This document shows positions 5,320 through 23,430 of a stretch of DNA of 27,581 nt, piece after piece. Under the pieces are notes generated by a model. That model was not told the origin of the DNA. It made no database searches and was given only the letters and a program-made list of their open reading frames with translations. Origin of the DNA: a virus; the IMG/VR virus record IMGVR_UViG_3300003321_000079, positions 1 through 27,581 of that record, one strand, 5' to 3'. Positions within the stretch are counted from its first letter, which is position 1. Every line of letters starts with the position of its first letter. A program made the translations under genes and the position numbers.

Positions 5320-6779
5320 TACCTAGCCCCTACGCTTCGTACCTTTTCGTCTGGGATTTCAATTCCAATGGCATCTGTAAAATCACCCGTGACATCGACT
5401 CGATATCGGTGATAGCGAGAATTCACACGGACAGGACAAATACCGGAAGAATTTTCAGAAGCTACCGAACCCCATGAGACGGTAGAGGCTTGTGTTTCTC
5501 GCGTTCCAGGTGTAACGGTATGTGTTCCACCATCCACCAAAGGCAAGACTTCAGTGATTTCGGTTCGCCTAGACGGAACCGGCTGAAATTCACCTGTTTC
5601 GAACTCAGCGTCTAAAGCCGTTCCCGTGAAGTAACCTAATTTATGCGACGTATCGAAAGCGGCGAGGTTTAAAACACCACCCATCCACACTTTTGAATCG
5701 AGTGAAAACGGAATGGTGTCGAGATTCGTATAACCAATCGTGTCCAGGTCTTCGAGCGTGATACCTACCGATTGAGCTCTGACGATTAATTCATGATCAA
5801 ACTCGGCATAACTCCATTTCTGAGTCGCCCAGTTGTACATAATGACTTTATTAGGCGTTCCATCAGAACTTCCCGATCCTGGGTAAGACCAGATAACGAC
5901 TTTATCTTTTGGAAACGCAGCTCCGGTGATTCGATATAGGTAGTCGTCGTTTAAATCGGCGAGGAAGGTTTTGTCGACTTTATTTGCACCAATGGGCACA
6001 GATTGACCACCGGTGAACATGTAAAAACCGTCATCGGCGATGTAGAAAATCATATTGCCAACCGGAATTACTCCACCGGGAGCCAAGGCCCCTCGCGCTT
6101 CTTCGACTTGATCGAACTGAAAAACTATGGGAGAGCCGATATAGGTAATCAACCAAATCGCTCTTTCCTGGAAAACCACTCCTCGTTCACCACCGACGAT
6201 CTTTTGTACCCAACCGCCGTTGCCTTGGAGGTCTTGATAATCGGCTTGGGTAGAGGGGTCGACCGTCCAACTGGTTTCATCGTTAAACGCCGACCATCTG
6301 ACCCGATTAGGCATCGGCCCGTCAGTCGTGTCGTTGGTGTTTCCAACTACGACAAAATCACGGACTGAAGTGATATGCCTTGCCTTGGGAGCCGTCGCAG
6401 ACAGATCGGCGAATGTCGTTCCACCGATGTCGATAGTCTGAATATTGTTGTCGTAGTTGGTGGCGATACATTTATTGCCCCACTTTATGAACTCCCAATA
6501 CGAGTCCGTTGCACAGGCATAAGTCGAACCCGAAGCGTCTGTCATGGTCGTCCCAGACAACCGATAAAGCTTTGTCGCGTCTCCTGCGTATTGGGAAACA
6601 CTTCCTGCTGTGTCTACAGCTGTGAAAGCTCCGCGACAGTACGCACTTAATGCAGAACTGTAAGACGACAAACTTGGGAAAGGCTTGTAACTTTTTTCAT
6701 GAGGGATGGCGTTTTTCGCTGAACCGCTACTCCCAAAAGCCGGACTATCAGGCTCCCAGCTCCCGAACGGGATGATCAT
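5319..6779 (-). CDS. Tail hub / DNA stabilisation-like structural protein (486 aa)
   Basis: A long beta-rich protein without a signal peptide. It starts MIIPFGSWEPDSPAFGSSGS and contains repeated blade-like units, such as KWGNKCIATNYDNNIQTID and ERAIWLITYIGSPIVFQFDQ, with GMIFYIADDGFYMF-type strands in the middle. The length and beta-propeller-like repeats match the large tail-accessory or stabilisation proteins found next to head-tail adaptors in short-tailed phages (the role of P22 gp10); the family assignment is inferred. Its ATG overlaps the adaptor stop by 4 bases. It probably caps the portal-adaptor channel and anchors the fibres. Confidence 0.7.
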   Translation of the reverse strand: MIIPFGSWEPDSPAFGSSGSAKNAIPHEKSYKPFPSLSSYSSALSAYCRGAFTAVDTAGSVSQYAGDATKLYRLSGTTMTDASGSTYACATDSYWEFIKWGNKCIATNYDNNIQTIDIGGTTFADLSATAPKARHITSVRDFVVVGNTNDTTDGPMPNRVRWSAFNDETSWTVDPSTQADYQDLQGNGGWVQKIVGGERGVVFQERAIWLITYIGSPIVFQFDQVEEARGALAPGGVIPVGNMIFYIADDGFYMFTGGQSVPIGANKVDKTFLADLNDDYLYRITGAAFPKDKVVIWSYPGSGSSDGTPNKVIMYNWATQKWSYAEFDHELIVRAQSVGITLEDLDTIGYTNLDTIPFSLDSKVWMGGVLNLAAFDTSHKLGYFTGTALDAEFETGEFQPVPSRRTEITEVLPLVDGGTHTVTPGTRETQASTVSWGSVASENSSGICPVRVNSRYHRYRVDVTGDFTDAIGIEIPDEKVRSVGAR

Positions 6780-7393
6780 GAATAACTCGCCTTCGCCGTC
6801 AAAGGACTTCCTGAACGTTGTTCCTTCTTGTCTTCGTCTTCAATAGCAGACTTAGCTGCCTGATACTTAGCCTCCCATACAACCGTCCTCTCATCATTCT
6901 TCAGGAACGGTTCGGCTTCGCAAAGAGAAGCCCACAAGAGAATGTCAGGAGCGTTAGCGGTAAACCAATTGGTCGTATTCGAAGCAGATAACGAAGTCAA
7001 ACGAGCGTAGTAAATGCCCTTCACCGTGTAGTCAGAACTTGGGAAAGGCCCGAAGATAAAATTCGAACCTTCTCTCGCGATGAAAGTAGGTTTCCCCGTA
7101 GACGACCTAATGGGGTATTTTTCGTAGATATAATCTACGGTCTGACGTTGTAGTCTCACTACTGGTGAACCGTCGATATAAACAGATTTAATCTCTACGT
7201 AGTCACTTGGTACGGCTAACACACCACCCGACATCGCGCTGTTTAAAGCCGTCTCCATCGCTCGAATACGAAGTTCTCGATAAATACGTCTTTCACCGAG
7301 CATGATGAAATCGGGAACGTAAGAAGTTAGGTCGTCTCGGTTAAGCCAATTCGCTACGGCTGTTTGTAATTCACTGTACGACGTTATGCTCAT
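6776..7393 (-). CDS. Head-tail adaptor protein (205 aa)
   Basis: The sequence pattern is that of phage adaptor proteins: an N-terminal helical part (SYSELQTAVANWLNRDDL, then PDFIMLGERRIYRELRIR), a beta domain with the characteristic VPSDYVEIKSVYIDGSP and FIFGPFPSSDYTVKGIYYAR, and a C-terminal helix (WEAKYQAAKSAIEDEDK). Such proteins form the ring joining portal to tail hub. The start lies 23 bases inside the end of the aminotransferase gene, so this structural gene is translationally tied to the sugar cassette upstream. Its function is well supported by pattern and by position before the hub gene. Confidence 0.8.
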   Translation of the reverse strand: MSITSYSELQTAVANWLNRDDLTSYVPDFIMLGERRIYRELRIRAMETALNSAMSGGVLAVPSDYVEIKSVYIDGSPVVRLQRQTVDYIYEKYPIRSSTGKPTFIAREGSNFIFGPFPSSDYTVKGIYYARLTSLSASNTTNWFTANAPDILLWASLCEAEPFLKNDERTVVWEAKYQAAKSAIEDEDKKEQRSGSPLTAKASYS

Positions 7394-8363
7394 TGACTAT
7401 CTCTGATATTTTCTTTACGTCGTCCATGGATACATGCCTTCCCGTGGGGAGGCATAGACCGGTTTGATAGAGTCTTTCCGCCATCGGAAACTTTCCATCA
7501 GCTCTAAACGCTTGCTGGTAGGGAAGGATGGGAAAGACTCGTCGGGATTCGATTTTGTATTTAGCTAACTTGTCTTTAACCGCTTGTGGGTTGTCGACAT
7601 TGGCAACAAACACCCACTTGCCAAAACCAATCAGGTATTTCGAATATTCTTCAATGACCTTTTGTTTCAGGTCCTTGGTTTCATCAACGACATCCAACTG
7701 TGCCAACCCTAATGCCGCTTGCATGGCGGTCATTCGGTAGTTGAGTCCAGGTACTGAGAATTGATAGTTCTTGTCGAACCCACCGTTTCTAAAGGCTTCT
7801 GCTTGGGATAAATCCTTACCACACAACATTCCACCTTCGCCTGTCGTCATGTCCTTATTTGCAAAGAACGAGAAACAGGTGAAATCAGCGTGATGGTTTA
7901 ATACCCCCAACGCTTCACAAGAATCTTCAATAACAGGGATACCTAAGATCGTGACGTCTTCGGCCACTTCTCCGTAGAGATGGACAGAGATAATCGCCTT
8001 GGTGTTGTCTGTGACTGCGTTTAAGACATTGGCGACGGTTAGCAGTCCTTTTTCATCAGTGTCTACGTAAACCGGCTTTGCACCGACGGCTAGGACGACT
8101 GATGCACACGTGCCAAAAGAGATAGCCGGTAAAATGACTTCATCGCCTGGACCGACTTTCAAAGACAAGAGAGCTAGATGTAACGCCGCTGTACCACTTG
8201 AAACCGATAAAGAATCTTCCCCGACCCAGTGACTAAATTCTTTCTCGAACCTACCGACTATGGGAGACCGATAGGTCAACCATTCGTTGTCGATACACTC
8301 GATGAGATATTCTTTCTCTTTTCCTGAAAAATAAGGTTTGAAGAGCGGAATAGATGATTCCAA
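7371..8363 (-). CDS. DegT/DnrJ/EryC1-family PLP sugar aminotransferase (about 330 aa)
   Basis: This is the PLP-dependent family that aminates NDP-keto-sugars using glutamate or glutamine. Numbering from a TTG at 8363: the N-terminus has the family motif IPLFKPYFSG, then VSSGTAALHLAL (substrate/PLP phosphate region, about 54-65), VIEDSCEALG with the PLP-ring aspartate at about 147, and FFANKDMTTGEGGML with the Schiff-base lysine at about 170. The length is slightly short of the usual 360-390. The start is uncertain: TTG at 8363 has GGAG just upstream, while an ATG at 8423 has AAAGGGAG upstream but adds 20 residues unlike the family. Either way it overlaps the preceding gene by about 90 bases or more. 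It is the last cassette gene and probably makes an amino sugar donor. Confidence 0.88.
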   Translation of the reverse strand: MESSIPLFKPYFSGKEKEYLIECIDNEWLTYRSPIVGRFEKEFSHWVGEDSLSVSSGTAALHLALLSLKVGPGDEVILPAISFGTCASVVLAVGAKPVYVDTDEKGLLTVANVLNAVTDNTKAIISVHLYGEVAEDVTILGIPVIEDSCEALGVLNHHADFTCFSFFANKDMTTGEGGMLCGKDLSQAEAFRNGGFDKNYQFSVPGLNYRMTAMQAALGLAQLDVVDETKDLKQKVIEEYSKYLIGFGKWVFVANVDNPQAVKDKLAKYKIESRRVFPILPYQQAFRADGKFPMAERLYQTGLCLPTGRHVSMDDVKKISEIVNEHNVVQ

Positions 8364-9184
8364 GCTTCTCCGCTTCTCATCTCGTCTAACGTCCACTGCG
8401 TGTATGCGAGGTTGTGCGCCCATTGCTCCCTTTCAGGTTTCTTGGGGTTGTCTATGTATAAGAGATTTCTGTTGGCGACGGGGAAGGCCATTGATCCGGC
8501 GTCGTCTACGAAAACTGGAATACCTTCAATCGCGGCTTCCACTCCTGAATTGGAGTTGAAAGTGACGACTGCCCAGGCGTCTTGAAGATCTTCCAAAATC
8601 GGTCTGAACGAGTGCTCGCAGACTTTGGCAACATCTACGGCAGATATAAGTTCAGGGTTTCGAAATTTCGGATGCGGACGGAATACTATTTCTCGTTCCG
8701 TTCTTTCATGGATGGAAAGGATGGTTTCTCTCAACCATTTAACATGGTCTGTATGATCTACAGCGGCATCCCAAGGAATCTGTCCACAGACAACGATCTT
8801 GGAGCCCTGCTTCCAAGGCTTCAGTTTTACGCCTAACTTCTCCCATCTGTCTGAAGGAGAGTCGTAGTTATTGAAATCCGCTCGACCGTTTAAGCCGTCA
8901 AATCCAACCGCATAGTGATTGTTTTCCTCGTCACCACGGTTGATATATCCAGTCTCTAAAACAATGGTGCGTTTACCGTTGGCCTTTTGCCTATCGATTA
9001 CATCTCCTCGATAGTTGCTATAGGGAACGGCTTTCTTTCTGACACCGAATACAACTGCTATGTCACTCGGTGAATGATCCTGGACGGGCCTTAATTCTTT
9101 CTCTACCGGACAACCTTCGTATAAAGCCTTTATCGTTCTGTCATGTACCGGATCGACTCCGGTTAGATAGAAATTAGCTTTCAC
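8276..9184 (-). CDS. Capsule-type (KpsS / GT-B-like) glycosyltransferase-like protein (302 aa)
   Basis: The fold and motifs resemble bacterial capsule polysaccharide transferases of the KpsS/CDP-glycerol-transferase type. A conserved VFRPHPKF (residues 168-174) is the RPHP element of that group, and VVTFNSNSGVEAAIEGIPVF (206-225) matches their donor-binding loop, followed by DDAGSMAFP. The start ATG at 9184 overlaps the methyltransferase stop by 11 bases. The end, beyond the conserved SGEAWNHLF (271-279), runs about 90 bases into the aminotransferase gene in another frame, so the final 20-odd residues are probably unconstrained. Inferred activity: sugar or phosphoglycerol transfer. Substrate unknown. 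Confidence 0.7.
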   Translation of the reverse strand: MKANFYLTGVDPVHDRTIKALYEGCPVEKELRPVQDHSPSDIAVVFGVRKKAVPYSNYRGDVIDRQKANGKRTIVLETGYINRGDEENNHYAVGFDGLNGRADFNNYDSPSDRWEKLGVKLKPWKQGSKIVVCGQIPWDAAVDHTDHVKWLRETILSIHERTEREIVFRPHPKFRNPELISAVDVAKVCEHSFRPILEDLQDAWAVVTFNSNSGVEAAIEGIPVFVDDAGSMAFPVANRNLLYIDNPKKPEREQWAHNLAYTQWTLDEMRSGEAWNHLFRSSNLIFQEKRKNISSSVSTTNG

Positions 9185-9719
9185 GTCTCACCAACACACC
9201 GTGACTGCCCATTTTGTAGAATTCAGTCGCCCCAGGAAGTGAATGATTGGCCTGGGGAGATATAAGGATCGTCAATCGATTGGAGAGAGACTTTAATTTC
9301 TCCCACGCTTCCTCAACTCCCGTATCGCCTTTGTCCTTCCTGAATAAAATCTGAGAACACCACACAATGTCGTGCTTCTTTTGATACTTCATGAAGTCGG
9401 CGACCTCGAATAGAGAATCTCCAAACATCATTTGTCCGGCTTTTACCGCGTCTTCCCAGATATCAATCCCGTGGTATTCAACTTGGTTCTTAACGTGACG
9501 ATATAACCAACCCCCATAACACCCGACGTCTAAAAGCGTACCGTCTTTTAATTCGTGGAGATGTTTCTCCAAAATCCCTCTAACTTGGTAGGTGAGCTGG
9601 TCGTCGTCAGGACAACAAAGTTGCAACGCCGTTCTAAGTCCGATAAACGGGACAACTCCTGATTGTGGAGTTTTAAGACGAGCTTTTAAAAACTCTACTA
9701 CGGACTGAAGGTTATCCAT
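9174..9719 (-). CDS. Class I SAM-dependent methyltransferase-like protein (181 aa)
   Basis: Residues 62-70 read LLDVGCYGG, the glycine-rich SAM-binding motif I, and are followed by YHGIDIWEDAVKAGQ (82-96), where the acidic residue binding the SAM ribose is expected. HDIVWCSQILF (about 114-124) is the motif IV-like strand. The protein is short with no separate target-recognition domain, as in small-molecule or glycan methyltransferases rather than DNA methyltransferases. It overlaps both neighbours by a few bases, which ties it to the glycosyltransferases. It probably methylates a sugar intermediate or the finished glycan; this is inferred. Confidence 0.75.
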   Translation of the reverse strand: MDNLQSVVEFLKARLKTPQSGVVPFIGLRTALQLCCPDDDQLTYQVRGILEKHLHELKDGTLLDVGCYGGWLYRHVKNQVEYHGIDIWEDAVKAGQMMFGDSLFEVADFMKYQKKHDIVWCSQILFRKDKGDTGVEEAWEKLKSLSNRLTILISPQANHSLPGATEFYKMGSHGVLVRRES

Positions 9720-10497
9720 TGGGAAGAATAATCGGATTCCAATACAGTCCTTCTTGCTTGACGACTAATTCGCTTACGTCAGTCCGTTTCCCCTTTCGAT
9801 TCCCCTTTCGGTGGTCCATGTACTTACCCAAAACAGAATTAACAAATGGGTGATTCGTTGACTCAGGGGTTAGATGAGCCGAAAGGTTTACGAAATCTGA
9901 AGCATATTTCTTATAAAACCTTCTCGCCGTGTCGAACCCATAGCAGTCGTGCCAGCCTTCTAAAGTGAAGATCATTCCACTTTTGAAAATAGCTAAATAC
10001 GCACCGAAGAAGGGTTCGCATAGAGGATGATTGGCGTTAAACCCTAGAAATCCTGATTCGGTATAGGGAATCGAGGTCCAACCTTCTCGACCAAGAAAAC
10101 AATTGAACTTGTCATCCGGGAGAACGCTGTCTAGAAAATCATGAGTGACGTCACTGTGAGTAAAGACATCCCCATCAACCCAAAATACTTTCCCACCGTA
10201 GGTTTTAACGGCGTGGGCCTGCATAAAAGACTTTCTCGCCATGCCGGCGTCGAGCTGTATGTTATAACTCCCATCCCCCATGTCCCCTTTCATCATAGGG
10301 AACTTGGAGATTGAGTCCATCCAATCCTGATACCCTTCCACTTCCTCTATAAAGTGCCAATCGTCTCGAAGGTTATTCCCTTCGTAATAAACCACTAGCC
10401 TTACGTCTTTGGGCCAGTGCTTTTTAAAGCTCTCAATAAAATCCTTACCGTACTTCTCATACCCTGACTCGGTAAAACTCGTAATTACGGTTTTCAT
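9712..10497 (-). CDS. Glycosyltransferase-like protein with DxD motif (261 aa)
   Basis: The protein begins MKTVITSFTESGYEKYGKDF, a Rossmann-like opening of GT-A transferases. VFWVDGDVFTH (residues 104-114) holds a DGD triplet (D108, D110) after hydrophobic residues, the DxD metal and nucleotide-sugar site of GT-A enzymes. GFLGFNANHPLCEPFFGAYL (149-168) resembles the acceptor-side segment of GT8/GT32-like families. The ATG overlaps the TPR-glycosyltransferase stop by 4 bases. The reaction and sugar are unknown. It acts, by inference, in the cytoplasm during late infection. Confidence 0.7.
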   Translation of the reverse strand: MKTVITSFTESGYEKYGKDFIESFKKHWPKDVRLVVYYEGNNLRDDWHFIEEVEGYQDWMDSISKFPMMKGDMGDGSYNIQLDAGMARKSFMQAHAVKTYGGKVFWVDGDVFTHSDVTHDFLDSVLPDDKFNCFLGREGWTSIPYTESGFLGFNANHPLCEPFFGAYLAIFKSGMIFTLEGWHDCYGFDTARRFYKKYASDFVNLSAHLTPESTNHPFVNSVLGKYMDHRKGNRKGKRTDVSELVVKQEGLYWNPIILPNG

Positions 10498-11852
10498 TTA
10501 CCCTTTATTTCGTTGGCTACTCTGGAAATGACGGATTCCCACGAACCTTTTTGACGGAAAATCTTCAGGTCTTTCGACCAAGGGACTGAATCACCCTTGC
10601 ATCCCCAAACCCATATCGGCCATTCGGGGATCATGGCCAAAGTCTTAACTCCTAACGAGCTCGAAAGGTGAAGTGCTGAGGTATTCACCCCAATCACCAT
10701 GTCGAGTTCCGCAACTAATCCAGCGGTATCGTCGTAGTCGTAGGTGTCTAACGCTCTTTGCCAGTGATGAATCTTGATTCCATGCTTTTTATGGAATTCT
10801 TCGATTTCCTCATCACGGTTTCGGTATTCAAGCGAAACAAACGTGAAGTCTTGAGACAGAATGGGTAAAAGTTCCTCAAGAGTAAGCCTACGTCGATTAC
10901 TCCCCGTGGCTTTCGTCCCGCCTGTCCATGCTATTCCGACCTTCTTTTTGTCGCTAATCGACGCTAACAGCGTTTTCCATTGAAGGCGTCGTTCAGGATC
11001 GGCTACGAGAAATGGTTTACCTGGAAAATCTTCTGTTTTCTTCCGGTAATACTTAGGCAGCGAGCTAAAAGCCGCTCTGCCATCAATTTGATAGTTCTGA
11101 ATCCAATTCAATTCGGGACTGTCTGTAACAAACCTCGTCCCGTAAACGTCTGCTTCGGGAAAACTACGTTTGAAAAGTCCTTTCAAACGTCTATCACACT
11201 CGATAATGACTTTTTTGGAGTCTTTAATCAGATCTGGGATGCAGGAGGAAAACTTAATCTCATCTCCTATCCCCTGCTCCCCATAAGTTACTATGGTCTT
11301 ACCTTTCTCCCCATTCCAACGGGGTTCATTGCCGTAAACTCTTTCCTTCCGATCAGGACTTCTACCGACAAACGCTTCGTAGTCTTCCCATCCCGTCCAA
11401 TCGCCGTTCATTAACTTGGCAATACCGCGATTGAATAACGCCTCTGGTAGACCAGGAGAAAGACTTAACGCCTTTTCCAACCACGGAAAGGCTTTTTCTG
11501 GCTTTCCTTGAACCACGTAATTCAGGCCAATGTTCAAATATGGGTCTACATACTTAGGATCGAGAGCAATGGCTTTCTTGAACACTGCCTCGGCTTCAGC
11601 AAGGTCATGTCCTTCCTGAAACGTCCTGCCGTATAACGCAAGAATCTTGGCGTTCACGTTACCAAGGTCCATACAACGCTTTAAGAGATTACGAGCTACG
11701 CCTAGCCGATCTTCCTCATAGGCGATAAACCCAAGGATGTATAACGCATGTCCATTGTTGGGATCATCGTCTAGAACATCGTTTACTAATTTTGCAGCTT
11801 GTTGGTAATTCTTCTCTTGTACTAACTGCGTTGCCTCGATAAGACGCTTCAT
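10494..11852 (-). CDS. TPR-repeat glycosyltransferase (GT9/GT-B-like), 452 aa
   Basis: Two modules are visible. Residues 1-150 are tetratricopeptide repeats (for example GHALYILGFIAYEEDRLGVA and DPYLNIGLNYVVQGKPEKAF). From about 185 there is a GT-B transferase domain starting TIVTYGEQGIGDEIKFSSC, the family hallmark of TPR-glycosyltransferases. Its donor-binding end is ELDMVIGVNTSALHLSSSLG (about 384-403), the nucleotide-sugar loop seen in heptosyltransferase-like (GT9) enzymes. TPRs commonly bind protein acceptors, so protein glycosylation is a reasonable inference. The ATG overlaps the stop of the 112-aa gene by 4 bases. It is the first gene of the sugar cassette. Confidence 0.8.
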   Translation of the reverse strand: MKRLIEATQLVQEKNYQQAAKLVNDVLDDDPNNGHALYILGFIAYEEDRLGVARNLLKRCMDLGNVNAKILALYGRTFQEGHDLAEAEAVFKKAIALDPKYVDPYLNIGLNYVVQGKPEKAFPWLEKALSLSPGLPEALFNRGIAKLMNGDWTGWEDYEAFVGRSPDRKERVYGNEPRWNGEKGKTIVTYGEQGIGDEIKFSSCIPDLIKDSKKVIIECDRRLKGLFKRSFPEADVYGTRFVTDSPELNWIQNYQIDGRAAFSSLPKYYRKKTEDFPGKPFLVADPERRLQWKTLLASISDKKKVGIAWTGGTKATGSNRRRLTLEELLPILSQDFTFVSLEYRNRDEEIEEFHKKHGIKIHHWQRALDTYDYDDTAGLVAELDMVIGVNTSALHLSSSLGVKTLAMIPEWPIWVWGCKGDSVPWSKDLKIFRQKGSWESVISRVANEIKGK

Positions 11853-12187
11853 CCGCGAGGGTTATGCCTCATGTTGGTAACTTTGAAATTGGGATAAAGC
11901 TCGTTGATCTTTCTAAATACTGCTTTGGCATGGGCAGGGTCGAATACGTTTAACCCGTGTTCCATTTTGAGCTTCACGATAATCGAGTCGGGTATGTGGG
12001 CGTAATGCAACCAACCCTCTTTCATCCCATCTCTTGTGTACTGAGTGTCATTGGCCAGTTTTTTGGTATGGTCCATGACGTGTTCAACGTCTTGCACGGT
12101 TTCAATGACGGTCGTATCCGTCATTTCATCGTGATGGAAAATCTCAGTAAGGCCGGTTTGTTTATCGTGAGAGAGAATTCGTTTCAT
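11849..12187 (-). CDS. Hypothetical protein between capsid gene and sugar cassette (112 aa)
   Basis: Starts MKRILSHDKQTGLTEIFHHD at 12187 and ends NMRHNPRG. The frame stays open upstream as far as 12469, but that part lies inside the capsid gene and is unlikely to be used. Histidine- and acid-rich, without membrane segments; the middle (LHYAHIPDSIIVKLKMEHGL) reads like a small globular domain. Similar small proteins, which relate residues to host or capsid assembly in ways not known, occur after capsid genes in related phages. The start lies 6 bases after the terminator stem, with no Shine-Dalgarno sequence, so expression is presumably low or by readthrough. Confidence 0.6.
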   Translation of the reverse strand: MKRILSHDKQTGLTEIFHHDEMTDTTVIETVQDVEHVMDHTKKLANDTQYTRDGMKEGWLHYAHIPDSIIVKLKMEHGLNVFDPAHAKAVFRKINELYPNFKVTNMRHNPRG

Positions 12188-12192
12188 TAAAA

Positions 12193-12218
12193 GAAAGGGG
12201 GCCTTTCGGCCCCCTTTC
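12193..12218 (-). terminator. Strong hairpin terminator after the major capsid gene
   Basis: An 11-bp perfect inverted repeat (12193-12203 and 12208-12218) encloses a GAAA tetraloop on the minus strand and is followed by TTTT at 12192-12189. It sits 7 bases after the capsid stop and directly before the ATG of the next gene. It looks like an attenuating terminator that keeps capsid transcripts abundant relative to the downstream sugar cassette. Confidence 0.85.
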
Positions 12219-12224
12219 CTAGTG

Positions 12225-13187
12225 TTACGTCGCTGAGGTGACCTTACCGCTGGCCGCTTCGTTCTTGGAGATAAGCGTGCATTCCACCAAGAGCTGACGA
12301 CGGACGGCGTCACCGGTAATCGCGAGTTCCTTCTGCTGGAAGGGGCGAAGATATGCAACACCCCAATATTCCATATCGAGAACCAAGGCGACCGAGCTTC
12401 GCATAAAGCGGTTAGGAACAATGGCATGTTCACCGAAGTTCGAGATGTAAAGATCAGCACCACCAACAATCGTGCCCTGATCTTTACCCTTCACTTCACG
12501 ATACAAGGTAGCGATACCCGTGAACCCCGACACACGGACCTTCTGCGTAGCACTGACCATGACGATTTTCGGATCACCACCGGCCGTCCAACAGGCTTGG
12601 ATAACCGAATCCAAATGAGCCTTGGTCATCGAAGCGGTCGTGGAGTTATCGGTCGGAGCCGCAACACGACCGGAGATAAACCCCGGAGTCGTCGGGTTAC
12701 CACCACTACCCACGTCCGTACGGTTGGTGAAAATCCACGATTCCACAGAGGCCAACGTGGCGGCAGTAGATGCCGCGCCAGAGGTCGAGGCTTGGTTACG
12801 TACCAGGGCGTATTCCTGATCGCGTTTCAGTTCCTTGCCCTGTTTGGCGATCTGATAAGCGAGGTCAGACTTACGACCGGCTTTATCAACGGCTTCCTGC
12901 GTACCAGACACACCAAAGGTCTTCTGCAAAATCTGCGTATAGTTACCCAGGCGAACCGTCGGGACAACGCTGACGTTGGTCGCGTCATCACCCTGAACGG
13001 CCTGGTTGGTGGCAGCCGCCGCCAAAGAGTCGGTCTGCCATTCCGTATACGTCGAATTCGCTTTCATCTTCTGCGCGTTCGACAGGAACGGGGTTTCGGT
13101 AGGACTAATGTTGTAAATCACATCAGACAAATCTTCACGGTTACCGATGGCCGTGAAGGTCTGAAAAGTTCCGGCTGCGACAGTCAT
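12225..13187 (-). CDS. Major capsid protein, SU10-like (DUF5309-type), 320 aa
   Basis: The N-terminus carries the family pattern: NREDLSDVIYNISPTETPFL, then TYTEWQTDSLAAA. The middle has the segments VRLGNYTQILQKTFGVSGT and AYQIAKQGKELKRDQEYALV, and the C-terminus MEYWGVAYLRPFQQKELAIT. These match the SU10-like capsid family (HK97 fold, no separate protease expected here). The ATG has AAGGAG 5 bases upstream, the strongest-looking ribosome site in the morphogenesis region, consistent with high expression. It lies 20 bases after the scaffold gene and is followed at once by a terminator. It self-assembles with the scaffold into the procapsid. Confidence 0.85.
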   Translation of the reverse strand: MTVAAGTFQTFTAIGNREDLSDVIYNISPTETPFLSNAQKMKANSTYTEWQTDSLAAAATNQAVQGDDATNVSVVPTVRLGNYTQILQKTFGVSGTQEAVDKAGRKSDLAYQIAKQGKELKRDQEYALVRNQASTSGAASTAATLASVESWIFTNRTDVGSGGNPTTPGFISGRVAAPTDNSTTASMTKAHLDSVIQACWTAGGDPKIVMVSATQKVRVSGFTGIATLYREVKGKDQGTIVGGADLYISNFGEHAIVPNRFMRSSVALVLDMEYWGVAYLRPFQQKELAITGDAVRRQLLVECTLISKNEAASGKVTSAT

Positions 13188-13207: not shown

Positions 13208-14239
13208 TCAAAGCATTTTTTCGATGAGCTTGGCCGCATCTTCTACCCGTCCGGTTTTACGAAGACTGGCCAGACCTTCTTTGCGCTGCTCTTGTGCTTT
13301 GTCAGATTTCGAGGGAGTCGTACCGCTTTTAAGAACTTTGGGGAGATTCAGAACTTTCTTCTGCTGGAGAGAGGCGGTTTTATTCGCTTTCTCAAACAGC
13401 ATGGCATTTCGGATGATCTTGACGTGACGATGATCGTAAATGTTTCCGATTTCCTGCTCCGAGTAACCCAAACCTTTGAGATAGGAATTAATCTCCATCT
13501 TGTCGGCACTTGCCCGTTTGGCGTCTTTCCATTCGGGGATGGCCTCGACAAGAAGGTTTTGCTCCTTCTTCAAAGTCTCTCGGAGATGATCCTGAAACTT
13601 ACCTTTCTGTTCTTCTTCAAGCTGCTGGGCTTTGTTCACGATATTCTGTTTCAAAGCCTGCAACTGATTGTAGCGATCGTTGTACTCTTGCTTACGCGCG
13701 GCGAATTCCGCTGGATCAGTGTTTCTCAACTGCTGCCAGTTAACCGATTGGTACTCAGCGAGTAAGTTCTGTTCGAAAATCTGACTGTAAGTAGCGGCTT
13801 CACGCAAATGGTTCTGGATTTCCTGGGTGGCCCGTTCCCGCTCAGCGTCGAAGGCTTTGCGGTGTTCGGACAACTCCATAGATTTCTGCGTGTAGACTTT
13901 TTCCTGCTGGTAGCTCTTAACGATGTCGCTCAGAGAAACCGTGGATTCCTCGCCATTGACCTTGGTTCTGGCCTTGAGACTCAACAACTGCTCTAAGGGG
14001 AGTCCGGTCGCTTCGGCAAGTTCTTCTAGGGTTTCGAGCTTACTTTCGTTTGCCTCACCTTCTGCTTCAGTCTCGACTTCAGGAGCTTCCTTTTCAGGAC
14101 TGGCTTCTTCTGTTTGGACTGTTTCTTCAACTTCTGCTTTGGGATCGGGTTCGCTTTGACTCGGGGGAGTGAGCAGACTTTCGATCTTTCCAGCGGCAAC
14201 GTCTAAATCATCAGCGCCCATGGGGTTGGCTGTTTCCAT
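13208..14239 (-). CDS. Capsid scaffold protein (343 aa)
   Basis: Position directly before the capsid gene and composition identify it. Residues 1-90 are acidic and disordered-looking (EVEETVQTEEASPEKEAPEV), a segment near 95-140 has LEELAEATGLPLEQLLSLK and VNGEESTVSLSDIVKSYQQ, followed by a long predicted coiled coil rich in Gln, Glu and Lys (140-240), and a basic C-terminus (KTGRVEDAAKLIEKML) likely to bind the capsid shell. No protease active site is visible. AAGGAG lies 6 bases before the ATG. It would direct procapsid assembly and be released during packaging. Confidence 0.8.
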   Translation of the reverse strand: METANPMGADDLDVAAGKIESLLTPPSQSEPDPKAEVEETVQTEEASPEKEAPEVETEAEGEANESKLETLEELAEATGLPLEQLLSLKARTKVNGEESTVSLSDIVKSYQQEKVYTQKSMELSEHRKAFDAERERATQEIQNHLREAATYSQIFEQNLLAEYQSVNWQQLRNTDPAEFAARKQEYNDRYNQLQALKQNIVNKAQQLEEEQKGKFQDHLRETLKKEQNLLVEAIPEWKDAKRASADKMEINSYLKGLGYSEQEIGNIYDHRHVKIIRNAMLFEKANKTASLQQKKVLNLPKVLKSGTTPSKSDKAQEQRKEGLASLRKTGRVEDAAKLIEKML

Positions 14240-14330: not shown

Positions 14331-14639
14331 TCAATATCTGGGCAAACTGAAATTCGGCTTGATCTTATTAACCAATCCTTGAAGACGAGTAAGTTCTGCC
14401 TCGGCCATCTTTCCTGTGCCCATGACGGAACGTAGATGACGTTCGAACTCGTTTACTACCTTCATCATCTTCCAGGCGTCTTCACGGCCGTCCTTGTCGT
14501 TCGCCTTGGACGTTTCCCATGAGTCGCGGATGTTTCCTCGAATGACAGACAGCGCTTCTTTGAGAAGATCGTCTTCCATCAGACGTTGAGCTCTGACACC
14601 ACGCACCCGTTCTAACTCAAGCTTTCCCGTCTCGCTCAT
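14331..14639 (-). CDS. Small helical protein between portal and scaffold (102 aa)
   Basis: An all-helical, charged protein (RVRGVRAQRLMEDDLLKEAL, then WKMMKVVNEFERHLRSVMGT) with no membrane segments. It overlaps the portal stop by 4 bases (ATGA), so it is translated as part of the head operon. Proteins of this size occupy the same position in related short-tailed phages with no firm function; a packaging or portal-accessory role is possible. The 91 bases after it carry only short inverted repeats (for example around 14284-14306), no ORF of note. Confidence 0.65.
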   Translation of the reverse strand: MSETGKLELERVRGVRAQRLMEDDLLKEALSVIRGNIRDSWETSKANDKDGREDAWKMMKVVNEFERHLRSVMGTGKMAEAELTRLQGLVNKIKPNFSLPRY

Positions 14640-16906
14640 TGCGCAGGCATCATGGGTTTATTCGAGGGATGGTCTAATTCGACTTTCCGCATCATGTGGT
14701 CACGGGTTTTCATCTGGTGTTCGTGGTGATGAATGATGCTGGTCTTCAATGAGTCGTAGACGTTATTCGTGTGATTGATCATCTGGACGGTATTGGAATC
14801 CAGGTCGGCTTTGTATTTCTCAAGTACTGCGTCACGGACAGATATTTCGTTCTTGAGCAAGGAGTCGAGCTTTTGCAGTTGTCCCTGAATCTGGCTGGTG
14901 ACGATTTCAACCATCCGGTCCTTATTCTCAGAATCGGAGGCGAGCTTAATCTTGAGGACTTCGATTTCTTGACCAATCTGCTCAATCTGAGCTTGACGGA
15001 TGGAGTCTTGCTGTTTGAACTGCAATTCCATGGCTTTAGCTTGATTGGCCATATCAGTCTTGTATTTCTCCGACTGCCTCTTCCCTTGCTCAATCTGCAT
15101 CTGAGCTTGTAAGGCCATTTCTTCAGGAGACGGCCCTTGAGGCGGTGCCGGCGGTGCTCGGGACGGATCAGAAAAGAATTCGTCCGCGTTCTTAAAGCCA
15201 TTGATATGGGCTTTCTTCTTTAACGCGTTGTAGATGTTTTCAGGCTTGACCAATACGCCTAAGCCGCCGTTCTGAGCGAGATTGGTTTGATCGGTGATGA
15301 TCGAGTTAATCGCAATCAACTGTTGGTCCTTCGAAGCTGATCCCAGACCAACCGATACCGTCATGTTGGTACGTTGTCTCCATTCCCTCGGATCAACCTC
15401 GACCCAATTGTTCTTGAGCTTCACGACTTCGGGAATGTTCTGATACTTCGAGGCGAGTTCATGAATGTCCATGAACAACTGCTTAACTCCCGTCTCGGCG
15501 AAGATTCTCGCAATCATCTCTACACGCTGTTGGGCGGCACTCAAAAGCCCTTGGACAGCGGGAATGTTGGCTTCCTTCAGAATATCGGCGTTAAGACCTT
15601 GGAATTGCTTGCCGACGCCTGTACGCGTTTCTTTAACCTCATCCAAGTACGAAATCATGTTGAACGCTTCCGTGGGTAACGGAGGCGGAACGATGGGCAT
15701 TAGATTTTGCCCGGGTGAATCCATGGTTCTCACCACACCACCCGGACGACGGGTTAGCAGATCGTCGAGATTCACTCGGCCATCCTGCGCTCCGATCATG
15801 GAATTATTGTTGAGATATAGATTGTCTAGAATCTGCCGCCAGATCGTAGATTTGATCAGCTGTAGATCACGGACAAGATCGGCAATCGAGAGACCAAAGA
15901 ACTTGTGCGTTAAGATGATTGGAGTGAGAGAGCAGAACGGAATCCTATCCGTTTCCTCGTTATCCAAAATCTCATTACCCGCCATCGTAACTTTACGCAG
16001 TTCCGCCTTCCCATCGCCGTCATAGTCGACTTTGATGTAACACTCATAGACCCATACTTCACGCATGGACTTGTCTTGAGTTGAACTGACGTTATTACTC
16101 AACTCATCGGTGATATTTCGACGAGCAATGTATTCGGCTTCGGTATTGATGTGATCGTCAGACGGGAGACTTTTGACGGTCGCCTCGTCATATCCCATCT
16201 CAAGCAAGTCTGAAATCGTCTTCTTACTGCGGTGAGCCGTGAAGAACGCTTTCTTCGGATCGGGAGACTTGGCTTTACTGGTAATCAAGAACTCTTCAGG
16301 TGGAACGTTATCAATCACGATGTCGTGAGAGACACGGTTACGCCTAAAGACCGCATCATGGACCTTGACCGGAAGTTGCTGGCCCATTACTTCTACGGTG
16401 ATCATTCGCTCGGAATGAGCAGTCGCTTCTAGTTCAGGGTCGCTCAGGAGAATCGTCCATTCCCCGTCTGTTAACCCTTGGTATTCCTCCCGGCTACTTT
16501 CTTCCTTCTTTTCACAGTAGGGCTTGATAATCCCGTTCTTCTGAAGCAGAGCATCTTTAAACCACGTGTAGAGGATTAAGAAACCTTCGTTCTTCTTGTA
16601 GAAGATGTAATTGCAATAATCGGTCTCTTGCTCAGCCTGCGGTTCGTCTTCCACACCTACCGGATCGAACTCAACGGCTTTGTCGCCAGACGAGAAGATG
16701 CGCATAAGAGACGGCATGATCCATTCGATTGTCTCCGCGACTTCTCTAGAGACAACAGACGACCGACCTTCCATCTCGTTACCAAACGGCTCGCCTAAGT
16801 AGTAATCCATCGCCTGGGCGCGCTGATTGGATAAGTCGCCACCCATGTAGCCCATCGCAGAACGTATCTCTGCGTTAACGATGGCTTTTAATTCTGTATC
16901 TTCCAT
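14636..16906 (-). CDS. Portal protein (756 aa)
   Basis: A large portal of the short-tailed-phage type. The N-terminus reads AIVNAEIRSAMGYMGGDLSN, followed by MDYYLGEPFGNEMEGRSSVV and VAETIEWIMPSLMRIFSSGD, the canonical opening of this family. The middle contains CSLTPIILTHKFFGLSIADL and ETRTGVGKQFQGLNADIL (portal clip and stem regions). The last 180 residues are Gln/Lys-rich coiled coil (MALQAQMQIEQGKRQSEKY) ending HPSNKPMMPAQ, resembling the barrel extension of long portals. It forms the dodecameric DNA channel at one capsid vertex. The start shares a base with the stop of a tiny upstream gene. Confidence 0.88.
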   Translation of the reverse strand: MEDTELKAIVNAEIRSAMGYMGGDLSNQRAQAMDYYLGEPFGNEMEGRSSVVSREVAETIEWIMPSLMRIFSSGDKAVEFDPVGVEDEPQAEQETDYCNYIFYKKNEGFLILYTWFKDALLQKNGIIKPYCEKKEESSREEYQGLTDGEWTILLSDPELEATAHSERMITVEVMGQQLPVKVHDAVFRRNRVSHDIVIDNVPPEEFLITSKAKSPDPKKAFFTAHRSKKTISDLLEMGYDEATVKSLPSDDHINTEAEYIARRNITDELSNNVSSTQDKSMREVWVYECYIKVDYDGDGKAELRKVTMAGNEILDNEETDRIPFCSLTPIILTHKFFGLSIADLVRDLQLIKSTIWRQILDNLYLNNNSMIGAQDGRVNLDDLLTRRPGGVVRTMDSPGQNLMPIVPPPLPTEAFNMISYLDEVKETRTGVGKQFQGLNADILKEANIPAVQGLLSAAQQRVEMIARIFAETGVKQLFMDIHELASKYQNIPEVVKLKNNWVEVDPREWRQRTNMTVSVGLGSASKDQQLIAINSIITDQTNLAQNGGLGVLVKPENIYNALKKKAHINGFKNADEFFSDPSRAPPAPPQGPSPEEMALQAQMQIEQGKRQSEKYKTDMANQAKAMELQFKQQDSIRQAQIEQIGQEIEVLKIKLASDSENKDRMVEIVTSQIQGQLQKLDSLLKNEISVRDAVLEKYKADLDSNTVQMINHTNNVYDSLKTSIIHHHEHQMKTRDHMMRKVELDHPSNKPMMPAQ

Positions 16907-20557: not shown

Positions 20558-21109
20558 TCAACTCGCCAATCTTTTCTTCAAAGCGTTAACCAAGATGTCT
20601 TCCCATTTATCGACAGTCTCGATTTGAAAGTCTCTGTATCGATCCGCCCACGTATCTGACCAGCTCGATTCAGAAACGCCTACGAGCCTCGCACGGTCAA
20701 CGCCTCTGATCTTTCGCTTGCCAGTACCATTACAACCATCACAAGTGATTACAGGGCCTGTCTCGGGCCTTACCTCGCCTCTTCCGTGGCACCATGTACA
20801 CGTGTGTGGATCGACTGCTTCGGTGAGAATGAGATAAGCCATGTTCAAGACAAAATCCGGCCGTGGATTTCTCCAATGAGAATTTGCTTTCTTGTACATG
20901 ATCGAGCGACGAATAGCTTTGGCACAATCCTCTGCAAGCTCTACCTGACCGCAATACTTAACCCGACCATAAAGGGCTACATCATGGACCCGGATAAGTC
21001 CTAGGGCTTGGCTGATGTCATTACACGTGAGAACCGGTATCCCACCAGGAGCCATATGAAATCTCTGCACTCGTGCGGTCAACATTCCTAACAGTTCTTG
21101 TGCTTGCAT
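20558..21109 (-). CDS. Q-like late antiterminator with DnaJ-type zinc finger (183 aa)
   Basis: CTWCHGRG (104-111) and CDGCNGTG (123-130) form two CxxCxGxG halves of a zinc finger, followed by RARLVGVSESSWSDTWADRY, a helix-rich end typical of phage Q antitermination proteins. Residues 24-50 (IPVLTCNDISQALGLIRVHD) form the N-terminal helical part. The ATG at 21109 is preferred (AAGGA 8 bases upstream); a GTG at 21136 would add nine residues. It ends 50-odd bases before the repeats and promoter, the classic Q/pR' arrangement. Inferred role: letting RNA polymerase read through the leader and late terminators. Confidence 0.8.
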   Translation of the reverse strand: MQAQELLGMLTARVQRFHMAPGGIPVLTCNDISQALGLIRVHDVALYGRVKYCGQVELAEDCAKAIRRSIMYKKANSHWRNPRPDFVLNMAYLILTEAVDPHTCTWCHGRGEVRPETGPVITCDGCNGTGKRKIRGVDRARLVGVSESSWSDTWADRYRDFQIETVDKWEDILVNALKKRLAS

Positions 21110-21154
21110 TGTCTGTTTCCTTGTTCCACGTTTCACAACTTTTAATGTGATGGA

Positions 21155-21785: not shown

Positions 21786-21985
21786 TTGATGGCCTGCAAC
21801 ATTGCTATCTCGTTCTTAAGAGAATTAACTTCCTCGGTTAGATCAAGAATCTCATCCAGCATCCAACCGGGAATTTGCCCCTTAATTAACGGAGCCCACA
21901 TATTGAGTTGAGCCAAACGAGCTTCTTTGCCAGCTAATTTATGTGCGAGCTTGTTACATTTCCGAACTCTCAGAAATTTCATCAC
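21782..21985 (-). CDS. Small hypothetical protein with coiled-coil end (67 aa)
   Basis: Starts MMKFLRVRKCNKLAHKLAGK, a basic helix, and ends in a heptad-like helix (LDLTEEVNSLKNEIAMLQ). Immediately follows the NinG gene with a 4-base overlap. No known family assigned. Confidence 0.6.
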   Translation of the reverse strand: MMKFLRVRKCNKLAHKLAGKEARLAQLNMWAPLIKGQIPGWMLDEILDLTEEVNSLKNEIAMLQAIK

Positions 21986-22410
21986 GACGCCTTACTCCAT
22001 TTCTGCGCACGCTCGATAACACTGAGCCTGCTTTTGTAGGATTCGATCATCTCTAGTAATTCTGATCGGGTGTACTTTCTGATCTTTCTGGATTCCTCTA
22101 GCTTTTCTTCCCACCATTCCAAGCTGTGTTCGCGGATGAGTTTGGCTACGTAGATGGGATAGTTACCGCGTTTGTAAATATTGCATGCCACACACTGCGG
22201 CCTTAACAAATCCTCATCGAACAACACCGCGCCTGTTCTCCCCCCGATTGCATGACCTGCTTGGAGCTCAACGACAGGCGAAGCCTTCCCGCACGTAAAA
22301 CAATTCGCCCACCCTCTGTGGTCGGCTGCGCCGTGACGAATCACCAAGCTAAGAAGCTTCCAGGCTTCTTTCTTCAAGGCTCCTAGGGATTTTTCTTTCT
22401 TCTTTTTCAT
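21982..22410 (-). CDS. ninG: NinG / Rap recombination protein (142 aa)
   Basis: NinG (lambda Rap) is a Holliday-junction-type endonuclease that helps phage recombination. Here the N-terminus is basic (MKKKKEKSLGALKKEAWKLL). CFTCG (37-41) and ELQAGHAIGGRT (48-59), then LLRPQCVACNIYKRGNYP (68-85), form the zinc-stabilised HNH-like core, with C37/C40 and C73/C76 pairs and H53. The helical tail (EWWEEKLEESRKIRKYTRSE) is typical of the family. Together with NinB it marks a lambda-like nin region. Confidence 0.85.
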   Translation of the reverse strand: MKKKKEKSLGALKKEAWKLLSLVIRHGAADHRGWANCFTCGKASPVVELQAGHAIGGRTGAVLFDEDLLRPQCVACNIYKRGNYPIYVAKLIREHSLEWWEEKLEESRKIRKYTRSELLEMIESYKSRLSVIERAQKWSKAS

Positions 22411-22631: not shown

Positions 22632-23026
22632 GAACGATCCTGAATCGCTTTAATGAGTCGTTTGCGTGCCCGTACGATTTCCCTCATCTGTGGCGGCAAG
22701 CGCATCCACTGCATTCTTTTACCCATGCGCTGGCGGTAAACAGGGTCTTTCCATCTTTCCCTAAGAGATGCGGCCTGCTTTCTACGCCTCTCGGATAAGT
22801 TGGAAGCGCGAGCCTTTGCTAAATGCTCCTTTACCCTGTCGCTATCCTTCATGCCATTTGAAATCTTCAGACTCAGCTCCGCGCGTACCTCTGGATCGCT
22901 AAAATACTTAGCCATCTTGGCGTTATGAGCCTTTACCTTTTCGCTCTTAGCGCGAGACGCCATCATTCGAGCGCGCCACTCTGGATCGGCCCATAGACGT
23001 TTGAGGTTGGGTCTAGTTTGTTTCAC
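22628..23026 (-). CDS. Basic repeat protein with W/Y-x-DP repeats (132 aa)
   Basis: A highly basic, helical protein. The unit LWADPEWRARM (11-21), then YFSDPEVRAEL (about 41-51) and RWKDPVYRQRM (about 91-101) recurs, each with an aromatic residue before -DP- and a following R-R pattern. This resembles the helical DNA-binding repeats attached to homing endonucleases (NUMOD3-like). No nuclease domain follows, so it may only bind DNA. It sits between NinB and NinG, coupled to both by 4-base overlaps. Confidence 0.6.
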   Translation of the reverse strand: MKQTRPNLKRLWADPEWRARMMASRAKSEKVKAHNAKMAKYFSDPEVRAELSLKISNGMKDSDRVKEHLAKARASNLSERRRKQAASLRERWKDPVYRQRMGKRMQWMRLPPQMREIVRARKRLIKAIQDRS

Positions 23027-23430
23027 GCCGCGCTATCCATTTCAAATTGGACGCCGTTATTGACGGCCCATACTTCGACTTTGGTCATAAATATTCCAAA
23101 ATCCTCTACGTTCAACTTGGTAGAGCTTTTTGGAACTAACACGACATCACCGTTTACCTCGACAGTATCTTTACCGATGAACTTTGATTTGAAGTACTCA
23201 TGCCAAACCTCTGGCGAATACTCTCTCCCATCTGGTTTAAGCTGGTCTGCGATATCGTTCAAAATCGCCCAATAGCGTGCGTTCTGCTCAATGCTGCGCT
23301 TGTGCTTATAGGGGCGAAATACGACTTCGTGCGCTACACCGGAGGCACGGTCGTTGTAGAGGCTCACCAGGACAGATTTCGCAGCCGTGAACTGGCGGTC
23401 GGAGGTCAGAATGAAGCGCTGGTCGCTCAT
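23023..23430 (-). CDS. ninB: NinB / Orf recombination mediator (135 aa)
   Basis: The lambda Orf (NinB) family helps load recombinase on SSB-coated DNA. The family pattern is seen in VVFRPYKHKRSIEQNARYWA (36-55), then ILNDIADQLKPDGREYSP and YFKSKFIGKDTVEVNGDVV, with a C-terminal STKLNVEDFGIFMTKVEVWA. The length is normal. It overlaps its neighbours by 4 bases at each end. It forms a recombination pair with NinG downstream. Confidence 0.9.
   Translation of the reverse strand: MSDQRFILTSDRQFTAAKSVLVSLYNDRASGVAHEVVFRPYKHKRSIEQNARYWAILNDIADQLKPDGREYSPEVWHEYFKSKFIGKDTVEVNGDVVLVPKSSTKLNVEDFGIFMTKVEVWAVNNGVQFEMDSAA

Follow-up and report, generated by a model that had tools for sequence, protein, structure and literature searches.

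Organization of the locus

The window, i.e. the whole 27,581-nucleotide stretch analysed here (IMGVR_UViG_3300003321_000079, positions 1 to 27,581), contains an SU10-type (Kuravirus-type) morphogenesis module, in which matches to PF17236, PF23899 and PF24175 lie above cut-off and in order. Embedded in this module, on the minus strand at 7371-11852, are five overlapping sugar-enzyme ORFs, all of them present where the initial annotation had placed them: a TPR-GT9-like glycosyltransferase (TPR-GT), a GT-A glycosyltransferase, a methyltransferase, a KpsC-fold transferase and a DegT aminotransferase, in this order. The features, from portal to adaptor, are:

14636..16906, minus strand, SU10-type portal (PF23899, 3e-215)
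13208..14239, minus strand, head scaffolding protein (phrog_3927, 2.8e-58)
12225..13187, minus strand, SU10-type major capsid protein (MCP), the candidate acceptor (SU10_MCP PF17236, 4.6e-94)
12191..12220, minus strand, intrinsic-terminator hairpin (13-bp stem, GAAA loop, T tail; -26.7 kcal/mol, z -5.8)
11849..12187, minus strand, small head gene, upstream border of the slot (phrog_3982)
10494..11852, minus strand, TPR-GT, 452 aa
9712..10497, minus strand, GT-A glycosyltransferase, 261 aa
9174..9719, minus strand, class I SAM methyltransferase, 181 aa
8276..9184, minus strand, KpsC-like GT-B transferase, 302 aa, GTG start
7371..8423, minus strand, DegT-family sugar aminotransferase, 350 aa, start uncertain
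6776..7393, minus strand, SU10-type adaptor, downstream border of the slot (SU10_adaptor PF24175, 5.4e-36)

The cassette thus lies between the capsid and adaptor genes as previously proposed, but the MCP is not its direct neighbor, for the small head gene and a strong terminator hairpin intervene. The hairpin stands between the MCP and the small head gene, ahead of the cassette transcript, a position that fits a low dose of enzyme relative to an abundant substrate, and comparable hairpins occur 3' of the MCP in 18 of 30 TPR-GT relatives. The small head gene overlaps the TPR-GT gene by 4 bp, and the following junctions overlap by 4 bp (TPR-GT/GT-A), 8 bp (GT-A/methyltransferase) and 11 bp (methyltransferase/KpsC-like). 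The DegT gene has three candidate starts (ATG 8423, GTG 8396 and TTG 8363), giving an overlap with the KpsC-like gene of 148 bp from the ATG and 88 bp from the TTG; because the starts of homologues point to the short form, the largest overlap of about 90 bases given in the initial annotation is plausible. The adaptor indeed starts inside the aminotransferase gene, with an overlap of 23 bp. The cassette genes are not chance ORFs, because counterparts are encoded in the same order in other phages: the relative L002 has four of the five with 76-82% identity, while in the podovirus MW202713 and in L033 the last four positions are all represented, along with a TPR-less homolog of the first gene.

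Predicted activities of the five enzymes

Profile searches and structure prediction upheld the family assignments made earlier from the bare sequence, namely TPR plus GT9-like, GT-A with a DxD motif, SAM methyltransferase, capsule-type transferase and DegT. The TPR-GT possesses N-terminal TPR repeats (about residues 10-150; Pfam TPR_2 5e-15, with several Pfam TPR families above cut-off) and a C-terminal GT9-like domain with an EQGIGDEI motif at residue 192. Sequence searches of the latter domain against the PDB recovered no clear match, and 15 of 45 homologous C-terminal domains showed weak matches to PF01075 (Glyco_transf_9), the best being 2e-4. Human OGT, SPINDLY and the like were disregarded as evidence, given that whole-protein profile matches to them covered the TPRs only. 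The combination of TPRs with a putative GT-B domain resembles the architecture of the flagellin glycosyltransferase FlmG, and was counted in favor of a protein-glycosylation reading. A flagellin gene occurs close to 5 of 75 loci of bacterial homologs, and of 25 bacterial genomes with homologs 13 lack flagellin, so that the family must have other acceptors; a prophage origin of these bacterial loci was also considered, and none carried SU10 genes.

The GT-A gene recovered no Pfam or PHROG match, and hence none to GT8 (PF01501). As its profile likewise had no match among PDB sequences, the predicted fold was used, which resembles glycogenin, LARGE1, GT6 enzymes and the PBCV-1 capsid glycosyltransferase (Z 12.5-13.8). 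Together with an invariant D108xD110, this predicted fold is compatible with a GT6/GT8-like enzyme. The methyltransferase matches Methyltransf_11/25 (about 5e-4) and phrog_3382 (8.5e-8). In the case of the KpsC-like transferase, the top 15 VIA matches of the AlphaFold model (pLDDT 83.5) are all KpsC/WbbB/KrkA structures (Z 13.7-11.2, the best spanning 237 residues at 3.8 A), with other GT-B entries at Z <=11.0, and its sequence profile recovers KpsC 6mgd with E 0.004. It displays an RPHP motif at 169 and a candidate nucleophile, D139, which sits in the profile match GQIPWDAAV / GQVESDASI (the catalytic Asp of KpsC being D160) and is present in the five closest members and absent from divergent ones. 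The aminotransferase is a clear DegT member (PF01041, 4e-68; 230.6 bits against a cut-off of 19.8), with a PLP lysine, K190, in an NKxxTTGEGG motif aligned to 3bn1. Its nearest solved structures are the GDP-perosamine synthases 3bn1, 3dr7 and 3dr4 (about 2e-49), followed by 7b0m (6e-40), and in NCBIfam no equivalog scored above cut-off.

Enzymes of the DegT/perosamine and KpsC/WbbB types normally serve in O-antigen or capsule synthesis, and near relatives of the DegT protein of the window are rare among phages. These points favor an alternative in which LPS or capsule sugars are synthesized or remodeled by the cassette at a late stage of infection, to prevent superinfection or the re-adsorption of progeny. 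Searches for transmembrane segments in the three transferases and the methyltransferase recovered none, a feature shared by O-antigen glycosyltransferases of the cytoplasm, which require no membrane segment. However, membrane proteins such as a flippase or a polyprenyl-phosphate transferase are absent from the cassette, and TPR domains are typically protein-binding; in light of these and the positional evidence below, we regard modification of the host surface as unlikely.

Modification of phage DNA, with sugars on modified bases conferring resistance to restriction, has a precedent in the diverse glycans added by virus-encoded glycosyltransferases (Pyle et al. 2024, as cited in PMC12619734). 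Against this, no base hydroxymethylase or similar enzyme occurs among the scanned genes of the window (a partial genome with sparse annotation) or among the annotated genes of MW202713 and MW202512, complete phages with related cassettes. With the late head position and the TPR domain also speaking against it, this explanation appears highly improbable.

A glycosyltransferase slot in SU10-type phages

Scans seeded with the capsid sequence alone recovered 87 complete MCP-to-adaptor intervals, of which 44 lack a glycosyltransferase, 34 contain a single Anp1-type enzyme (matching Anp1, best 1.5e-7, and viral A197/2c0n), 9 contain the TPR type and none contains both. The MCP-adaptor slot is thus a dedicated glycosyltransferase site. 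That the slot glycosyltransferases (43/87 intervals) are of two unrelated kinds that never co-occur was counted in favor of a protein-glycosylation reading, and that half of the sampled SU10-type intervals have none was counted against it. Relatives with the same morphogenesis genes and no cassette, which the initial annotation had taken as potentially damaging to its proposal, do occur (the 44 intervals), yet in other MCP lineages. In a reciprocal scan seeded with TPR-GT, SU10-type head or adaptor/tail genes adjoin it in 68 of 79 contigs, on both sides in 36; the remaining 11 are short stretches, several of which stop right at the TPR-GT.

Inheritance of the TPR-GT and variability of its neighbors

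On the MCP tree the presence of TPR-GT is explained by one change, with 45/45 members of one clade (SH-aLRT 91) possessing it, 10 of which were retrieved by capsid alone. As the raw Mantel correlation between MCP and TPR-GT (0.865) was inflated by near-identical loci, we quote rank correlations of distances over 31 non-redundant loci: TPR-GT sequence tracks the MCP (rho 0.50) and portal (0.70), whereas its correlation is weak with the adaptor (0.21) and absent with the next tail gene (-0.01). Given the single origin, shared lineage could account for this co-inheritance without any link to the capsid. Similarly, MCP residues 134, 144, 163 and 166 of the window fall in columns enriched in Ser/Thr among TPR-GT phages; as glycosylation sites these are inseparable from shared ancestry, and we claim no MCP site because the columns lack independent phylogenetic contrasts.

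Unlike the fixed TPR-GT, the four genes downstream of it differ between phages. L002, L031, L033, L034 and L115 carry at the corresponding position methyltransferases that are not orthologous to that of the window. The window's set recurs in order in MW202713, a different podovirus, where it lies beside the terminase and not the capsid gene, an adjacency that was counted against protein glycosylation. In a phage with a P22-type coat, related tailoring genes and a GDP-mannose 4,6-dehydratase gene lie 3' of the capsid gene, which was counted for it; this dehydratase makes the substrate of perosamine synthase. The initial annotation knew of no system with this exact set in this place: the set proved to be one variant of a variable module. 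In the open literature searched we found no description of the slot, of this architecture or of its lineage-wide placement.

Such mobility raises the possibility of neutral accessory cargo, i.e. a moron at a tolerated head/tail junction with the TPR-GT merely riding along in one lineage. Consistent with this, the four downstream genes, including the methyltransferase that differs even from that of L002, are swapped between unrelated phages at different junctions, the cassette has a lower G+C (0.46) than the head genes (0.50), and other cargo occurs at nearby junctions. But the presence of TPR-GT throughout its MCP clade, following the divergence of MCP and portal, is unlike a moron, and the filling of the same slot by two unrelated glycosyltransferases also argues against mere cargo, which we accordingly rate somewhat below even the host-surface alternative.

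A potential virion-glycosylation system

The initial annotation had suggested decoration of either virion proteins or host surface glycans. Since the TPR-GT is lineage-wide in the head module and the cassette is devoid of membrane proteins, we favor a virion protein, with the host-glycan alternative retained for the downstream genes; further arguments against a host-surface role are that TPR-GT and head module are inherited together and that other phages fill the same slot with a single unrelated glycosyltransferase. The cassette probably glycosylates a head protein in the cytoplasm, much as FlmG does with flagellin, and is equipped with exchangeable sugar-tailoring genes. In such a system the DegT enzyme would convert a host NDP-4-keto-6-deoxy-hexose, most likely GDP-4-keto-6-deoxymannose, to a 4-amino-4,6-dideoxy sugar, and a sugar would also be the target of the methyltransferase. 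Through its TPR domain the TPR-GT would bind a newly made head protein, most likely the MCP, to which its GT9-like domain would attach the first sugar; the GT-A and KpsC-fold transferases would extend the glycan. The effect might be an altered virion surface, influencing for example stability, adsorption or shielding.

These observations suggest that phages of the TPR-GT lineage coat their own heads with sugars during assembly. The wider proposition, that an entire lineage within the SU10-type podoviruses possesses a dedicated protein glycosylation inherited with head morphogenesis, wherein a FlmG-like TPR-GT recognizes a capsid or head protein, exchangeable neighbors set an amino, methylated or ulosonic sugar, and other SU10-type phages use the unrelated Anp1-type enzyme in that slot, has in our estimate about an even chance of being correct. 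To our knowledge, glycosylated phage virions have been proven in only a few cases. The fixed slot, its two unrelated glycosyltransferases and the strict inheritance of TPR-GT with the head module offer a sequence-based marker of virion glycosylation that applies to many podoviruses not yet in culture. If the proposal is true, it would also yield a set of viral enzymes that glycosylate proteins, with TPR domains for acceptor binding that can be separated and sugar-tailoring genes that can be swapped; capsid glycosylation would be a common trait of environmental podoviruses, in which the type of glycan would evolve through the exchange of genes.

Comparison with known systems

The chlorella virus PBCV-1 decorates its major capsid protein by means of glycosyltransferases that it encodes itself. 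The GT-A model of the window resembles the PBCV-1 enzyme structures 2p6w, 2p72 and 2p73 (Z 12.6-13.1), but PBCV-1 is a eukaryotic virus with an unrelated capsid and another gene set. Distant homologs of the TPR-GT, KpsC-fold or GT-A enzyme occur in glycan islands of Synechococcus, Caulobacter and Pelagibacter phages (BUCT-ZZ01, CcrSC and Mosig); these are large myo- or jumbo phages, in which the genes lie near tail-fiber/lysozyme or nucleotide-metabolism genes rather than between capsid and adaptor. In the mycobacteriophages Che8, Corndog and Myrna, phage glycosyltransferases modify capsid and tail proteins (Freeman et al. 2023, as cited in PMC12619734 and PMC12363180). Those are other glycosyltransferases, the texts consulted mentioning no TPR-GT, whereas in the window the TPR-GT is accompanied by genes for an aminotransferase, a methyltransferase and a KpsC-fold enzyme within the head module of a podovirus.

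Among the closest parallels is the flagellin O-glycosyltransferase FlmG of Caulobacter crescentus, which binds flagellin through its TPR part and modifies it in the cytoplasm with its GT domain (PMC7591256). Compared by architecture, FlmG is a soluble protein that unites N-terminal TPRs with a C-terminal domain of GT-B type, an arrangement that the TPR-GT, with its TPRs and putative GT-B domain, would share. The acceptor of FlmG is a self-assembling surface protein that is modified in the cytoplasm before assembly. FlmG is, however, a cellular protein of 596 aa acting with pseudaminic acid, whereas the TPR-GT of the window is viral and resides in a head module.

Layout of the late region and identity of the cassette proteins

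The window record (27,581 bases) is not circular and is therefore probably a fragment of a virus genome. Its minus strand encodes an SU10-type podovirus late region in the order terminase large subunit, portal, scaffold, major capsid protein (MCP), small head gene (phrog_3982), five-gene cassette, adaptor, a structural phrog_3287 gene, and ejection-type genes. Overlaps between the cassette ORFs range from 4 to 148 bases. The DegT gene has three candidate starts:

8423, minus strand, ATG
8396, minus strand, GTG
8363, minus strand, TTG

Since DegT homologues begin just ahead of a conserved IPLxKP, the sequence makes the TTG a plausible start, with an overlap of 88 bases.

The first cassette enzyme (TPR-GT) combines N-terminal TPR repeats with a C-terminal domain remotely similar to GT9 (match in 15 of 45 homologues). 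No family match was recovered for the second and fourth proteins. The predicted model of the second (pLDDT 75) resembles GT-A enzymes of the glycogenin/LARGE1/GT6 type, with the PBCV-1 capsid glycosyltransferase also among its fold matches (Z 12.5-13.8 for these matches), and its DxD is invariant. The third is, by a weak match, a class I methyltransferase. For the fourth (pLDDT 83.5) the top 15 fold rows are KpsC, WbbB and KrkA (Z 13.7 to 11.2), and KpsC is the first match of its sequence profile (E 0.004). The fifth belongs to the DegT aminotransferases; its nearest solved relatives are perosamine synthases.

Related cassettes in other phages

The related contig L002 shares the order and place of the cassette, with a non-orthologous methyltransferase. 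In MW202713 and L033, podoviruses with a different head module, a TPR-less glycosyltransferase, GT-A, methyltransferase, KpsC-fold and DegT genes directly precede, and overlap, the terminase gene. In L034 GT-A, methyltransferase, KpsC-fold and DegT genes are immediately followed by an SU10 adaptor. L031, with a P22-type coat protein (phrog_283), has GT-A, GDP-mannose 4,6-dehydratase, methyltransferase, KpsC-fold, a further methyltransferase and GT8 genes between the coat gene and a DnaT_2-family gene, beyond which lie further morphogenesis-like ORFs. The dehydratase fits the DegT assignment, because its product is the established substrate of perosamine synthase. In Caulobacter phage CcrSC (L117:7908-9589) a pair of neighboring KpsC-fold homologues, together with an FkbM methyltransferase, is flanked by tail and lysozyme genes.

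Contents of the MCP-to-adaptor slot

Scanning viral contigs with the TPR-GT alignment recovered 79 further contigs, with SU10-type genes adjoining TPR-GT in 68 (on both sides in 36). After it, 52 contigs carry a GT8-like gene and 55 carry a related methyltransferase; less common neighbors are FkbM-type methyltransferases, KpsC-fold homologues and, on reading the sequence, radical-SAM-like and deacetylase-like ORFs. Five radical-SAM-like ORFs with a CxxxCxxC-type motif lie inside or beside the TPR-GT module, hinting at unusual sugar or protein chemistry; they are listed here with the deacetylase-like ORF:

L050:9011-9937, radical-SAM-like ORF
L061:4866-5834, radical-SAM-like ORF
L112:8880-9836, radical-SAM-like ORF
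L114:9590-10642, radical-SAM-like ORF
L051:9820-10860, radical-SAM-like ORF
L056:9456-9980, PIG-L-type deacetylase-like ORF in the slot, AHPDDE motif

MCP-only seeded scans yielded 87 complete MCP-to-adaptor intervals; 44 of these have no glycosyltransferase, 34 a single Anp1-type enzyme and nine TPR-GT, and none of the 87 has both enzymes. The samples from these scans consist of best-scoring matches rather than a random draw and include some near-duplicates. The Anp1-type enzyme (L198-L272, e.g. L199:8344-8988) is phrog_1574, which has no listed function; viral A197 (2c0n) is a further match of its profile. Two small genes, possibly head decoration proteins, separate MCP from the small head gene in two loci:

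L016:6095-6760, two small genes
L017:3831-4478, two small genes

Among phages lacking a slot glycosyltransferase, 18 of 44 carry homologues of the first of these genes; among those that have such an enzyme, 0 of 79 do.

Inheritance and expression

In an MCP phylogeny built from 124 loci, a single change explains the TPR-GT state (SH-aLRT 91 on that branch); the window falls near the base of the TPR-GT clade, and L009-like phages without TPR-GT are about equally distant. For the 31 loci that remain after deduplication at 80% MCP identity, pairwise distances give rank correlations of 0.50 for MCP/TPR-GT and 0.70 for both MCP/portal and TPR-GT/portal; with the adaptor they are 0.18 (MCP) and 0.21 (TPR-GT), and for TPR-GT versus the next tail gene -0.01. 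TPR-GT behaves as a head-module gene.

The window also carries the following features:

12191-12220, strong intrinsic-terminator hairpin separating MCP from the small head gene and everything after it (13-bp stem, T-rich tail; -26.7 kcal/mol, z -5.8)
20558-21136, Q-like antiterminator gene
21982-22410, NinG gene
23023-23430, NinB gene

A comparable hairpin lies 3' of MCP in 18 of 30 TPR-GT relatives tested. Its presence in many relatives, with differing stems, suggests that genes downstream of MCP are attenuated. The Q-like antiterminator, NinG and NinB genes represent lambdoid-style late control, here in a podovirus fragment, and bear on read-through of this terminator.

Proposed function and comparison with known systems

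The closest characterized working model for the phage TPR-GT is FlmG, the flagellin O-glycosyltransferase of Caulobacter crescentus, whose TPR domain binds the acceptor and whose GT-B domain glycosylates it in the cytoplasm prior to assembly (PMC7591256). Bacterial homologues of TPR-GT are frequently in tandem clusters; flagellin adjoins them in 5 of 75 loci and is absent from half of the checked genomes. Drawing on this model and these homologues, we propose that TPR-GT glycosylates a head protein and that the remaining four genes make available and lengthen the sugar. Here the identity of acceptor and sugar, as well as any gain for the phage, is inferred. A search of the open-access literature returned no description of the SU10 slot, a phage TPR-GT or this gene set. 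Glycoproteins are reported in XacN1 (PMC5852040), and in mycobacteriophages it is established that phage enzymes glycosylate the virion (cited in PMC12619734 and PMC12363180).
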